64,000 bases of DNA from Calothrix sp. MO_192.B10 (lineage in GTDB: Bacteria > Cyanobacteriota > Cyanobacteriia > Cyanobacteriales > Nostocaceae). The notes under the pieces were generated by a model. The model had not been told where the DNA came from and searched no databases. It worked only from the letters and a program-made list of their open reading frames with translations. Shown piece by piece: positions 21,045 to 27,296 of the stretch (position 1 is the first letter of the stretch; the number at the start of each line of letters is the position of its first letter). The DNA lies in the NCBI GenBank assembly GCA_030065055.1, contig JASJDS010000001.1, positions 62,001 to 126,000 of the forward strand, written 5' to 3'. A program made the translations under genes and the position numbers.

Positions 21045-21650
21045 ATTATCTCCTCAAAAATGTTTTGAGCAAATTGATGTGTGCTTTACTATTGCTAAAA
21101 GTGATTATTGCTAAAAGCTGTGATTATTTACGTTTCTCTGTAAATAGCTTCCATTCCCACAGTTTTATTTTCGTATTTATGCTCAAAAACAAAGACACAA
21201 TCTCAACTGTCTATTAATAAGTCACTAGTAAAGGGTGGTTAAGTAGGGCATTACAGTTCACAAATAAGGACAGAATAAAATCTGCCATATAAGTAGGTAG
21301 GTGGAAAAATTTATAACTATGTCATTGCGTTAGCGTTCGCGTAGCGTGCGCTTTGCGCTCAGCTTGTCCGATAGGACATACGGAGCAAAGCGAAGTGAAG
21401 CAATCGCAAGGGTTTTGAACTTTTTACATTCCGTTACATAATTAGGTTTATTTGTGCCTACCTACTTAGCTTGTAAGTGCCCTGCTTTTCCATATTCCAC
21501 CTACCTCATACCAATTTCAAAAAAGGATGCGACAAATAGATTCTTGTTCGGTGACGTAGCAATGCTAAGTCACCGAACAAGAGATGTGTTGCAATCATTT
21601 ATTAAATCGGTATCAGATAAATCAGGTGCAAAAAAATTTTCCCTAGGGTG
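21045..21650. other. intergenic region with palindromes
   Basis: Holds the promoter of the beta-helix gene, a dispersed GCGTAGCGTGCGCTTTGC-type repeat (21325-21400), a duplicated AAGTAGGTAGGTGG/CCTACCTACTTAG motif in inverted orientation (21291 and 21458), and a strong hairpin at 21543-21581. The ORF at 21454-21654 reads through these and is not credible. Confidence 0.5.
21543..21581. repeat. near-perfect long hairpin upstream of the RNA-array promoter
   Basis: CTTGTTCGGTGAC / GTCACCGAACAAG, 13 bp, with an inner TAGC-AAT-GCTA. It lies about 70 bases before the promoter at 21651 and could be an operator, a terminator for upstream transcription or a mobile remnant. No T run. Confidence 0.6.
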
Positions 21651-21679
21651 TTGACAATCTTGTATTACGTATGTAGTAT
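21651..21679 (+). promoter_or_regulatory. promoter of the small ORF / RNA array
   Basis: A perfect TTGACA (21651-21656), 17-base spacer and TAGTAT (21674-21679), with TATAAATAT just after. The next features downstream on the same strand are the 66-residue ORF, the nine-unit RNA array and the Ro60-like gene. Individual units may also have their own promoters. Confidence 0.6.
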
Positions 21680-21768
21680 ATAAATATGGACGGACAGAGA
21701 TGAAATCTTAAACAATCATCTAGCCCAGAGCAAATTAGCTCGCTGCATACTATACAGGAGCTTTAGAT

Positions 21769-21969
21769 ATGGTTCATATTAGATTTGAAGGTCGTTCTTA
21801 TGATGTAGATGAAGCGCGGTTAGGCGTGAAAGCAGGTATGAACGATGACCTGATTAAAGAGAGATTAGCACAACATTTTGATGTGCATTTAGAACGCTGG
21901 AACTCTTATGTAATAGACCGCAGACCAAGTGGTGATTTAATTGTAAGACCAGAAGCGGTATACGGATAA
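21769..21969 (+). CDS. small conserved-looking protein at the head of the RNA array
   Basis: 66 residues, [20 protein letters not shown] to IVRPEAVYG. It begins with a beta-strand, has a central amphipathic helix ([13 protein letters not shown]) and ends in strands, which would suit a small beta-grasp fold, but I do not recognise the family. GGAGC lies 9 bases before the ATG. Codon use is ordinary. It lies 90 bases downstream of the promoter and 24 bases before unit 1, so it should be cotranscribed with the array. The position suggests a role in the same system; that is inference only. Confidence 0.6.
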
Positions 21970-21993
21970 TAATTTTTAATTAATTATTGTCAT

Positions 21994-25310: not shown

Positions 25311-25623
25311 GAGGAGGGAAGGAGTGAGGGAGTGAAGGAAATAATATAGCACTACGAAATTAGGTTAGGACATCCTTGAACGCTGGAACCCATGAGCAGT
25401 CCACTTTTGACTTTTGACTTGCGCGTAGCGCTATATCTCCCCTACTCCCCACACTCCCATCTCTGCGCCTCTGCGCCTCTGCGTGAGACTTACATTTTCT
25501 TAATTTCACAACTGAATAGACATGACAAATATATCTGCGAAACACCCCTCTCCTTAATAAGGAGAGGGGCTGGGGGTGAGGTTCTCCCTCAATCCAAAAT
25601 TTAAAATCTAAAATTGAATAATC
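25311..25623. repeat. intergenic repeats with MITE copy
   Basis: Contains GGGAAGGAGTGAGG repeats, a MITE-like element (25344-25436), a CTCTGCGCCTCTGCG tandem and a CTCCTTAATAAGGAGAGGGGC palindrome (25549-25569) that also occurs near 23584. No gene. Confidence 0.7.
25344..25436. mobile_element. MITE-like element, copy A
   Basis: 93 bp bounded by imperfect inverted repeats ATATAGCACTACG / CGTAGCGCTATAT. The interior shares GTTAGGACAT, TTGAACGC, CATGAGCAGT-like and TTTTGACTTTTGACTTGCGC with the element at 49892-49993. No coding capacity. Confidence 0.7.
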
Positions 25624-26451
25624 ATGGAACAAGCTTATAAATTAGCCGCTATTGCTGTTAAACAAAGATTTACCGAACAATATCCTGAATATTTAAACAT
25701 CCTCAGAACAATTACTAAGCAAGATGTAGCAGTTTACTCCGGTAGCTATGACCAAGCGGAAAAAGTATTAAAGTGTTTAGATATTCCCGCTACTATTAAC
25801 CCCAATCCTCATAAACTATCAGCACAGGTTATATTTATCAACTGTTCTAGTGGCTATAACCAAGACTTAGTAACACATATCCGCAGTCATGTAGAACAGG
25901 GTAAGTGGTTAGTTACTTCTGACTGGGCGTTAGATAGAGTCCTAGAAAATGCTTTTCCGAACATGGTGCGTTGGAATCGCAAAAGTACGGGTGAAGAAAT
26001 TGTCTCCGTAGAACCATTCCAAAACAGCCTGTGGTCAGATATTGTGGTGCTGGGTGCAGATCCCCAGTGGTGGCTGTGGGGAAGTCATCCCATCGAAGTT
26101 CTCAACCCAGATAAAGTCAAAGTTGAAGCTGCAAGTCACGATTTATTACGACGTTACAACGCCCCTGTAGTAGCAGTGCGATTTGATTGGGGAGGGGGTC
26201 ATGTATTCCATGTAATTAGCCACTTTTGGGCAAAACGTAGCCATACCCCCACAGTACGCCATCAAAAACATTGTACGGAATTTTTGCGATCGGGGATGAA
26301 GTTAACTGATGAAGGTATAGAAAAGGTGTTGCGACAAGCACGGGTTAATGCCGACAACATTAACTTTGCTCAATTACAAAGTGCAGCCACATCAACGGAG
26401 TTAGTCGCTCAATTATGCGTGAATGCTGTCAGTAAGTTGGCAAGGAGGTGA
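25624..26451 (+). CDS. protein of unknown function, paralogue A of the Ro60-linked pair
   Basis: 275 residues, soluble. The fold looks alpha/beta: VAVYSGSYDQAEKVLKCLDI, VIFINCSSGY, VEQGKWLVTSDWALDRVL. This pattern (short strand, glycine turn, helix) resembles class I glutamine-amidotransferase-like domains, but no Cys nucleophile motif is present. Conserved blocks shared with its neighbour are SDIVVLGADPQWW, HPIEVLNPDKV and FDWGGGHVFHVISHFW. I do not recognise the family. It ends at 26451, 5 bases before the next gene. Being downstream of the Ro60-like gene suggests a common system. Confidence 0.75.
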   Translation: MEQAYKLAAIAVKQRFTEQYPEYLNILRTITKQDVAVYSGSYDQAEKVLKCLDIPATINPNPHKLSAQVIFINCSSGYNQDLVTHIRSHVEQGKWLVTSDWALDRVLENAFPNMVRWNRKSTGEEIVSVEPFQNSLWSDIVVLGADPQWWLWGSHPIEVLNPDKVKVEAASHDLLRRYNAPVVAVRFDWGGGHVFHVISHFWAKRSHTPTVRHQKHCTEFLRSGMKLTDEGIEKVLRQARVNADNINFAQLQSAATSTELVAQLCVNAVSKLARR

Positions 26452-26456
26452 AAATT

Positions 26457-27296
26457 ATGAGCAATATGCAAACAGCTTACAATGTAGCAGCTTTGGCAGT
26501 ACGAGAGCGATTTCAGGAACAATATCCCCAAGCCTTAGCAATCCTCAACAGGATTTGCAAGCAGGATATTGCTGTGTACTCCGGTACTTATGACCATGTA
26601 GAAAAGGTATTGCAATACTTGCAAGTTCCTTATACCATGAATCCTGATGCCAAGAAATTGAAAAGCGCCATCGCTTTTGTGAATTGTTCTGGTGGTTATA
26701 ATAGCCACCTCATTACCAACTTGGCACAGCAAGTAGAAAACGGGATGTGGTTGGTAAGTTCTGATTGGGCGCTCGGTAACTTTATCGCCAAAGCCTTTCC
26801 CAATACAGTCACGAAAACTAATAGAGCCACCGGAGATGAAGTAATTTCCGTTGAAGCTAGTTTAAACTCTCTGTGGTCTGATGTGGTAGTTTTAGGTGCA
26901 GATCCCCAGTGGTGGTTAGAAGGAAGCAGCCACCCCATTGAAGTACTTAACCCAGATAAAGTACGAATTGAAGCATCAAGTCACGATTTACTCCAGCGTT
27001 ATGATGCGCCGGTGGTAGCCGTCAGCTTTGATTGGGGAGGGGGTCATGTTTTCCATGTCATCAGCCACTTCTGGTGTAAGCGCAGTCGTACCTTAACCCC
27101 TCGACATCGCAATCCTTGTACTGACTTCCTGGAAGCAGGAATGAAGTTAAGTGAAGATGGGATTCAAAGGGTGTTATCAAAGGGAGGTATTAAAGCAGAT
27201 ACCCTGAACTTTGCCCAAATTCAAAGTGCAGCCACAGCTACAGAGTTAATAGCTCAACTGTGTGTCAAAGCTGTGGGAAAATTGGCGGTGAGGTGA
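26457..27296 (+). CDS. protein of unknown function, paralogue B of the Ro60-linked pair
   Basis: 279 residues from ATG at 26457, preceded by a strong AGGAGG; the in-frame GTG at 26448 overlaps that site. It is roughly 60-65 percent identical by eye to paralogue A along its whole length, including ADPQWW, EVLNPDKV and WGGGHVFHVISHFW with invariant His and Trp residues that could bind a ligand or metal. Tight spacing implies translational coupling. Two diverged but intact copies side by side suggest a heteromer. Function unknown. Confidence 0.75.
   Translation: MSNMQTAYNVAALAVRERFQEQYPQALAILNRICKQDIAVYSGTYDHVEKVLQYLQVPYTMNPDAKKLKSAIAFVNCSGGYNSHLITNLAQQVENGMWLVSSDWALGNFIAKAFPNTVTKTNRATGDEVISVEASLNSLWSDVVVLGADPQWWLEGSSHPIEVLNPDKVRIEASSHDLLQRYDAPVVAVSFDWGGGHVFHVISHFWCKRSRTLTPRHRNPCTDFLEAGMKLSEDGIQRVLSKGGIKADTLNFAQIQSAATATELIAQLCVKAVGKLAVR

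Follow-up and report, generated by a model that had tools for sequence, protein, structure and literature searches.

The window analysed here, 64,000 nucleotides (nt) of Calothrix sp. MO_192.B10 (contig JASJDS010000001.1, positions 62,001-126,000 of the forward strand), holds nine Y-RNA-like units between a small open reading frame (ORF) and the gene for a Ro60-like vWA protein. In this locus and its relatives, a covarying two-helix scaffold, present in up to nine copies per locus, carries exchangeable inserts similar to tRNA (whole or permuted), helices 69-71 (H69-71) of 23S rRNA, or the 23S sarcin-ricin loop with the GTPase-associated centre (GAC). We read the system, at a probability of roughly 0.45, as a Ro60-type ribonucleoprotein (RNP) library that displays imitations of tRNA and of the ribosomal elongation centre, most likely as decoys against attackers of translation. 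In filamentous cyanobacteria and some very large viruses, RNAs sharing this handle are probably bait or docking sites.

A covarying Y-RNA-like scaffold

The nine units occupy positions 21990-23809 of the plus strand, between a 66-residue ORF (21769-21969) and the 477-residue vWA ORF (23877-25310), and were detected in the window as the direct-repeat families D1 and D2. A scan combining a position weight matrix (PWM) with stem pairing recovered all nine on the plus strand of the window and none on the other, bearing out the first-pass annotation, which had described nine units on one strand with a shared stem plan and different inserts. When 363 kb of DNA from relatives was shuffled five times by dinucleotide blocks, the scan found no units at the same threshold; a looser threshold gave 2-5 matches per shuffle. 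The window and 106 further stretches (L028-L133, with some genomes, identical or nearly so, represented more than once) yielded 482 units, 443 of them unique.

Each unit contains a helix 1 of about 7-10 pairs, an internal loop (YCCUAAC-like facing AACUU) and a helix 2 of about 6-9 pairs around AGCU, followed by a UACAUAC-like stretch and an insert of 27-137 nt. The spacing of the arms is exact in the nine window units, with 26 nt in the 5′ arm (one base more in unit 1) and 20 nt in the 3′ arm. The basal helix, the internal loop with ACUUG on its 3′ side and the second helix together give the plan of a Y RNA, and ACUUG stands at the expected place in 399 of the 443 unique units, a count to be read with care because this motif is favoured in the scan. 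We take ACUUG to be a mark of other Y RNAs, an assumption partly backed by the Rfam YrlA consensus.

Folding with a shuffle control gave z values of –2.6, –5.3, –4.1, –5.4, –2.6 and –5.4 for units 3, 4, 5, 7, 8 and 9, respectively, and –1.4 for unit 2, which is not significant alone; units 1 and 6 were folded without this control owing to their length. The minimum-energy folds of units 3 and 8 contain the tRNA arms and lack the acceptor stem.

For comparison of the arms, 24 units were dropped, leaving 419 within limits of length and score, and removal of arms at least 80% alike left 103 representatives. In 32 of these, hand-picked for variety, the helices were paired in 93.4% of cells, against at most 53.1% in slid controls, and 104 cells were compensated (both sides changed) compared with 30.6 in shuffles, none of 500 shuffles being as high. 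Across all 103, each of the 16 pairs was paired in 71-100% of units, and pair 9-57 takes CG, UA, GC and AU with a mutual information of 1.09. In view of this strong covariation, the scaffold is a selected RNA structure, and not merely a DNA repeat.

Linkage of the units to the Ro60-like gene

A contig scan of GTDB provided the best 80 of 241 relatives, all titled cyanobacterial, referred to below as the 80 named loci. Units were found in 78 of them, 372 in total and every one on the strand of the gene, compared with none in three shuffles; the two named loci without units, L090 and L132, come from contigs 4.0 and 6.3 kb long. The scaffold is therefore conserved near homologues of the vWA gene in other genomes, a point on which the first-pass annotation had asked for a check.

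The Ro60-like protein is present in 23 of 59 genomes, including that of the window. A covariance model of the scaffold (R1), built from the arms with the insert cut out, clearly recovers five of the nine window units, so genome counts made with it are lower bounds. Within a 386-genome draw of the phylum, 31 genomes match the protein (28 at E ≤ 1e-80, one at 8e-17 and two near 5e-4 and 8e-4), 21 match R1 and 19 match both (Fisher p 3.8e-22), the co-occurrence for which the first-pass annotation had proposed a test; the protein and R1 draws were taken as the same 386 genomes on the strength of equal counts and shared handles. Five genomes without units by strict R1 (G037, G161, G172, G252 and G394) have two to six by the PWM-plus-stem scan, and G159 has a protein match without units on a 5.4-kb contig. 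No units accompany the truncated or partial genes in G168, G209 and G242, which is what joint decay of gene and units would produce. Ro60-like genes that are truncated or contain stops also occur in L198, L199 and L052; there are no units in L198 and L199 and one weak unit in L052. Two genomes run against the link: G093 has a single unit but lacks the gene within 13 kb, and in G029 the R1 match, which the PWM-plus-stem scan did not confirm, has no gene in 12 kb.

A divergent protein with a predicted Ro60 fold

The 477-residue protein (23877-25310, plus strand) combines a helical part with a vWA domain whose DxSxS motif is intact, as judged by alignment and predicted fold. Pfam searches of 21 such proteins found VWA_2 in 17 and vWA_Ro60 in two (best E 0.0025), and in sequence searches of the PDB, TROVE entries scored no better than E 0.08-0.1. 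All 21 proteins keep the DxSxS residues unchanged.

An AlphaFold2 model built from the 21 sequences (predicted local distance difference test (pLDDT) 77.9, predicted template modelling score (pTM) 0.62) was compared with known structures. All 13 Foldseek matches in the PDB at E ≤ 0.001 were Ro60/Rsr proteins (E 3.7e-11 to 7.7e-8), in agreement with the earlier description of the gene product as a Ro60-like helical-vWA protein. VIA-align placed the ‘Trove domain’ crystal 9kop and D. radiodurans Rsr at the top with Z 20.7 (4.0-4.2 Å over 420-434 residues, 14-15% identity), the match to Rsr covering 434 residues; the next family scored Z 13.9 and matched the vWA part only. The predicted model shows the full-length helical ring plus vWA fold that characterizes Ro60/Rsr and is decisive for a predicted Ro60 fold. 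Three of ten genomes tested contain a separate gene that does match TROVE, and the protein is therefore a divergent Ro60-like family in addition to the recognized one.

Inserts resembling tRNA

Crude motif rules sort the 443 unique units into 163 tRNA-like, 95 permuted tRNA (a T-loop motif in the first half), 66 short, 38 H69-71, 28 sarcin-ricin/GAC and 53 other units. All nine window units lie on the plus strand. ARAGORN recognized tRNAs in unit 3 (22398-22520, anticodon GAA), unit 7 (23209-23345, anticodon CUU, with a CCA end) and unit 8 (23403-23528, anticodon UAA), with Rfam tRNA scores of 54.8, 51.1 and 52.6 bits, respectively, and supporting folds; unit 3 was also assigned by the scan, and a faster whole-window Rfam search reported units 3 and 8 only. 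The acceptor ends of tRNA-like inserts adjoin helix 2 of the scaffold. Repeats, scan and fold place a permuted tRNA (T arm, acceptor hairpin, D arm) in unit 1 (21990-22149), presumably Leu-like by its resemblance. Scan and fold identify two anticodon-arm-like hairpins with loops CUGAAAA and CCGAAAA in unit 2 (22280-22385) and a short A/U-rich insert in unit 4 (22635-22719), while unit 9 (23726-23809), immediately 5′ of the Ro60-like gene, holds a short hairpin by scan, R1 and fold.

Unit 5 (22840-22987) carries a YrlA-like permuted tRNA, supported by its fold and by a score of 46.1 bits (E 1.5e-8) against Rfam YrlA (RF02553), short of the gathering score of 69. Together with four permuted inserts of L054 and L087, it makes up the YrlA matches at 36-46 bits, and no insert in the window region and three loci searched reaches the gathering score.

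Across the collection, ARAGORN recognized 158 tRNA-like units, of which 149 retain U33 and 117 have a fully paired anticodon arm. Related units of identity 0.86-0.995 only were matched into 43 disjoint pairs, in which the anticodon triplet differs at 31/129 sites, against 242/4860 elsewhere (p 7.7e-13); the anticodon is thus not kept among close relatives, as it would be in functional tRNAs. In a nearly identical set, also of 43 pairs, triplets change at a rate of 0.233 and the rest at 0.049, and four-fold degenerate sites in the Ro60-like genes of the same locus pairs change at 0.229 (2044/8941). With a rate equal to that of four-fold sites, the triplet looks unconstrained rather than engaged in an arms race, which these data do not show. 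The shape of the anticodon arm is preserved while the identity of the anticodon drifts at about the neutral rate, which argues against imitation of one particular tRNA. The five closest pairs give a higher anticodon rate (0.267 vs. 0.082), a figure biased upward because units of identity 0.995 or more were excluded; some of the unit pairs may, moreover, come from a single pair of loci.

Two other origins of these inserts were considered and set aside. Decoys copied from particular host tRNAs are not supported by comparison of the anticodon arms: the 17-nt arms of the three window mimics match the best natural arm among the genome's 59 tRNAs at 11, 14 and 13 of 17 positions. A real tRNA island is rejected, the units sharing a covarying scaffold and drifting anticodons. 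Some twenty tRNA genes do form a dense island (G000:C99:19550-21901, in L164) on the same contig, about 40 kb before the window.

Inserts resembling 23S rRNA

Unit 6 (23000-23189, plus strand) holds an insert resembling a piece of 23S H69-H71, apparently permuted at H69. E. coli rrnB served as the 23S reference because neither the Rfam large subunit (LSU) model in the window's genome nor a 23S pattern in one relative gave a match; 23S must exist there, and our guess is masking or an assembly gap. Against E. coli 23S 1915-1965, unit 6 scored 53, with 39 as the best of 60 shuffles; H69-71 inserts of two other units scored 40 vs. 38 and 36 vs. 44. The class occurs in 32 of the 80 named loci, always upstream of the Ro60-like gene. 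Its inserts carry 23S 1915-1941, and their 3′ end, GGUAA-A-CGGCCGU, pairs with a 5′ CGGYC with compensating changes. This end pairing suggests a circle opened at the H69 loop, as in the permuted tRNAs, a permutation that we infer because the rest of the insert aligns to 23S no better than chance. The second half of the insert resembles 23S upstream of H69 through two features: the motif GGUAA[GA], present in 30 of 38 inserts compared with 3 of 38 shuffled ones, and a stem that forms all five pairs in 24 of 38, a count flattered because the 3′ strand was placed wherever it fitted best within the final 34 nt. For this half, a 16S origin was rejected, no 16S score rising above shuffles, and Rfam returned only a chance match (E 2.6) for the H69-71 unit of L040.

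Sarcin-ricin/GAC units are found in 27 of the 80 named loci, 21 of them downstream and six upstream of the Ro60-like gene. The 23S sarcin-ricin loop, AGUACGAGAGGA, is exact in all 27 members of a cluster made by BLAST, in which the motif was not used, and is absent from the window. In these units, for example L078:11799, the loop is followed by the GAC. The two elements are distant in the 23S sequence and form one factor-binding site in the ribosome. The inserts match E. coli 23S positions 2652-2665 and approximately 1040-1119. The L078 insert scored 49.5 bits (E 2.2e-13) against the LSU (archaeal) model, half a bit below the gathering score; plain alignment to E. coli 23S, with the best of 60 shuffles, gave 72 vs. 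47 for L078 and 58 vs. 58 for L074. The first-pass assignment of the inserts to tRNA, permuted tRNA and a 23S piece is upheld, and other loci add the sarcin-ricin loop and GAC.

A further insert class in L032, L041, L045, L065 and L092 has a GGUGCGUAC-like hairpin core followed by CUGCAAGCC; the one unit tested, at 8195 in L065, matched no Rfam family.

Partner and accessory genes

The 66-residue gene (21769-21969, plus strand) heads the array and was identified as a core gene by alignment, linkage and structure prediction. It is present in 65 of the 80 named loci; among those with at least 2.9 kb of upstream sequence, the count is 64 of 69, so the small ORF does belong with the system, as first proposed. 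All 65 proteins end in RPEA(V/I)YG, with a terminal G (RPEAVYG in the window); 20 further copies were aligned. The model (pLDDT 89) is a small beta-grasp. Fold comparison returned weak similarity to, among others, ubiquitin, MoaD, TtuB and PB1 (best Z 5.5), and Foldseek gave no match at E ≤ 0.001; the protein looks ubiquitin-like in its predicted fold. Upstream of it lies a weak promoter-like site, TTGACA-17-TAGTAT (21651-21679, plus strand, 10/12); the single promoter of the first-pass annotation is thus present as a site, but 12 such sites against 10.1 in shuffles is a number no higher than chance.

Around the Ro60-like gene, from –7 to +8 kb, 24 ORF families occur in at least eight of the 80 loci, some of them antisense shadows. 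A ThiF/E1-like gene is present in 42 loci (Pfam E 2.5e-28), and uncharacterized genes of 280, 241 and 148 residues in 45, 42 and 32 loci, respectively. Paralogues of two translation proteins also recur: bL12 in 28 loci (88.4 bits, cut-off 84.4) and EF-Ts in nine (180.7 bits, cut-off 104). In the 12 loci for which a map was drawn, the bL12, 241-residue and 148-residue genes, where present, lie among the RNA units. Each of seven bL12-set genomes searched has an L12 gene at the locus plus one or more elsewhere, and L079, outside this set, has a single L12 gene in its genome. All seven genomes searched for EF-Ts have matches elsewhere in addition to the locus copy, full-length in four and in pieces in three. 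Eight of the nine EF-Ts paralogues keep TDFVA, which we take to be part of the EF-Tu contact; the ninth reads TDFVS. The window's own locus contains no ThiF-like, 280-residue, 241-residue, 148-residue, bL12 or EF-Ts genes; the ThiF-like and 280-residue genes lie on another contig of its genome. Profile searches of four uncharacterized gene families against PDB sequences gave nothing below E 0.05. Families including GNAT, histidine kinase, DUF4189, DUF924, AAA ATPase, peptidoglycan-binding and DUF433 (11-21 loci each) look like ordinary neighbours.

The two paralogous genes downstream of the Ro60-like gene, A (25624-26451) and B (26448-27296), both on the plus strand, had been counted among the core parts, a role that comparison does not support: they are present in five of the 80 named loci. 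As ORFs, they gave no convincing Pfam, NCBIfam or PDB match and belong to no known family. They occur in the window's genus (L028 and L048); L041 has a relative, L032 and L043 keep remnants, and relatives of B stand next to scaffold units in two other loci, L203 and L204. In other loci, their place holds EF-Ts or an rRNA unit with the 280-residue and ThiF genes, and A and B look like an optional module.

Other genes were noted nearby. Downstream of the Ro60-like gene, a PIN-domain (toxin-like) gene runs in the opposite direction in L076, L096, L098, L113, L117, L123, L127 and L130. An uncharacterized 97-residue gene of the window (27515-27808, plus strand) has relatives downstream of the system in L039 and L050, and a family with a member in L054 is found in 21 of the 80 named loci. 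An endonuclease dU family gene (PF01949) lies at 28115-28720 on the minus strand, and a distant relative stands beside a gene fragment in L053.

Viral and plasmid versions

Five IMG/VR contigs (L207-L211, 37-390 kb), phages by the collections' labels, encode a Ro60-like protein at 46-48% identity. The 280-residue gene accompanies it in all five, ThiF in four (the fifth stretch ends early) and the ubiquitin-like gene in three. Units with a diverged scaffold (GUCCCC / ACUUGGAC) are present in three of the five, several holding ARAGORN tRNAs; eight paired units were found in total, compared with none when the five stretches were shuffled ten times. A relative 72% identical to the L211 protein is present in the 595-kb record of an uncultured phage. 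In L207, group I introns and a tRNA array lie beside the diverged system.

Plasmid matches came from Kovacikia minuta (1.2 Mb) and Dolichospermum flos-aquae (68,932 bp), the latter of the same length as contig G146:C2. This contig contains units and the 66-residue gene, and its Ro60-like gene spans both contig ends, presumably lying across the start of a circle.

Discussion

The first-pass annotation had suggested that a Y RNA expanded here into a library of scaffolds, and the conservation of the scaffold, the predicted fold of the protein and the likeness of the inserts all point to such an expansion. Known Ro60/Rsr systems with Y RNAs (D. radiodurans Rsr 2nvo, human Ro60 and Thermus phage phiLo 9l5y) share the predicted full-length fold and, as here, have small RNAs with a basal stem and internal loop adjoining the gene. 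They differ in that the Calothrix-type protein is only about 15% identical and falls below Pfam TROVE, and in that up to nine RNAs per locus carry differing inserts alongside ubiquitin-like/E1-like partner genes. YrlA (RF02553) likewise combines a Y-RNA stem with a permuted tRNA (T arm, acceptor, D arm), but scores here stay below gathering and the YrlA-like insert is one of several classes. The Salmonella rsr-yrlBA-rtcBA operon (PMC7790460) also places a Ro60 orthologue beside Y RNAs with a tRNA-like domain; in contrast to that RNA-repair operon, the 15 neighbour families scanned here contain no RtcA/RtcB, and the mimics are many and include parts of rRNA. TROVE/Ro60-related proteins have been described in jumbo phages, the Ro60-type protein of very large phages being the shared feature, in accounts whose available portions make no mention of an array, an rRNA mimic or a ubiquitin-like/ThiF partner (PMC7824862, PMC7765460). 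Judged by title, the open-access matches listed included no cyanobacterial Y RNA arrays, rRNA-mimicking Y RNAs or Ro60/ubiquitin-like system.

What the inserts have in common, we assume, is that they are parts of tRNA or ribosome touched by elongation factors and RNA-targeting toxins. In the decoy reading, the Ro60-like ring would grip the common stem at the ACUUG-side internal loop, and each RNA would present its insert outward from the ring, as described for YrlA in a review (PMC8394870). The displayed parts might then absorb toxins or phage or host effectors that recognize tRNAs and the ribosomal factor-binding centre, and the ubiquitin-like/E1 pair might tag or control the complex; these last two steps are the least certain. 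The decoy reading is ranked first because a similar idea is in print, YrlA being suggested as a possible competitive inhibitor of an anticodon nuclease (PMC7790460), and because viral contigs share the system. The same core on large viral contigs fits a role in conflict on either side.

Several observations weigh against this reading. The likeness to rRNA is uneven: in plain alignment, two of three H69-71 inserts and one of two sarcin-ricin/GAC inserts score above every one of 60 shuffles, and for the H69-71 class the 3′ part stays at the level of shuffles (27.3 vs. 26.9). The Ro60-like protein has no Pfam TROVE (PF05731) match in the 21 proteins or for this gene in 10 genomes. The anticodon changes at the four-fold-site rate (0.233 vs. 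0.229). PADLOC 2.0.0 returned no matches for eight of nine system proteins, and generic E1 models only for the ThiF-like protein. Finally, the bL12 and EF-Ts paralogues fit docking of EF-Tu better than nuclease decoys.

EF-Tu docking and RNA surveillance are serious rivals of the decoy reading. In the former, which we consider somewhat improbable, the RNP would rebuild contacts of EF-Tu and other GTPases so as to collect, inhibit or inspect EF-Tu under stress or infection. The contacts in question would be tRNA, the sarcin-ricin loop with the GAC, bL12 and EF-Ts. Paralogues of bL12 occur in 28/80 loci and of EF-Ts in 9/80; the seven genomes searched for each have L12 genes or EF-Ts matches elsewhere (full-length in four for EF-Ts), and the presumed EF-Tu contact TDFVA is kept in eight of nine EF-Ts paralogues. 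The window's own locus, however, contains neither paralogue, and H69-71 is, to our knowledge, not an EF-Tu contact. Surveillance, an unlikelier proposal, holds that the inserts tether the ring to enzymes processing or modifying tRNA and rRNA, as in Deinococcus RYPER. The nearest known systems are so described and tRNA-modification enzymes act on YrlA, according to the review PMC8394870, and unit 5 with four permuted inserts of relatives scores with YrlA. Surveillance leaves the sarcin-ricin/GAC fusion and the bL12 and EF-Ts paralogues unexplained, however, and Pfam scanning of 15 of the 24 common neighbour families found no RtcB, PNPase or RNA-decay enzyme except PIN (eight loci).

That the inserts are functionless captured or decaying tRNA and rRNA genes, such as remnants of a tRNA island, is highly improbable. 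A large tRNA island does lie on the contig of the array, and tRNA genes stand beside the viral versions in L207, L208 and L211, but the strong covariation of the scaffold contradicts this view, and the 372 of 372 units on one strand, the tight link to one gene and the sequence constraint outside the anticodon also weigh against it.

Bacteria retain Ro60 and Y RNAs, some of which mimic tRNA, and the reasons for both are an open question; at this locus, many natural variants of such mimicry stand next to one another. Because the system is present in named culture-collection strains, such as Fischerella thermalis PCC 7521 (L064) and Nostoc carneum NIES-2107 (L098), binding and protection are directly testable. 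Ribosomal factor-binding elements on Y RNAs are without precedent among the open-access matches listed, and the locus links Ro60 to ubiquitin-like chemistry and to paralogues of translation factors. A tentative further reading, which we hold with some doubt, is a Ro60-based dummy elongation centre in cyanobacteria and very large phages, in which RNAs imitating tRNA, the sarcin-ricin loop, the GAC and H69-71, with bL12- and EF-Ts-like proteins and accompanied by the ubiquitin-like/E1 pair, would trap translational GTPases or toxins that attack the centre. If true, it would represent a new form of immunity, or of counter-immunity, based on ribosome mimicry.

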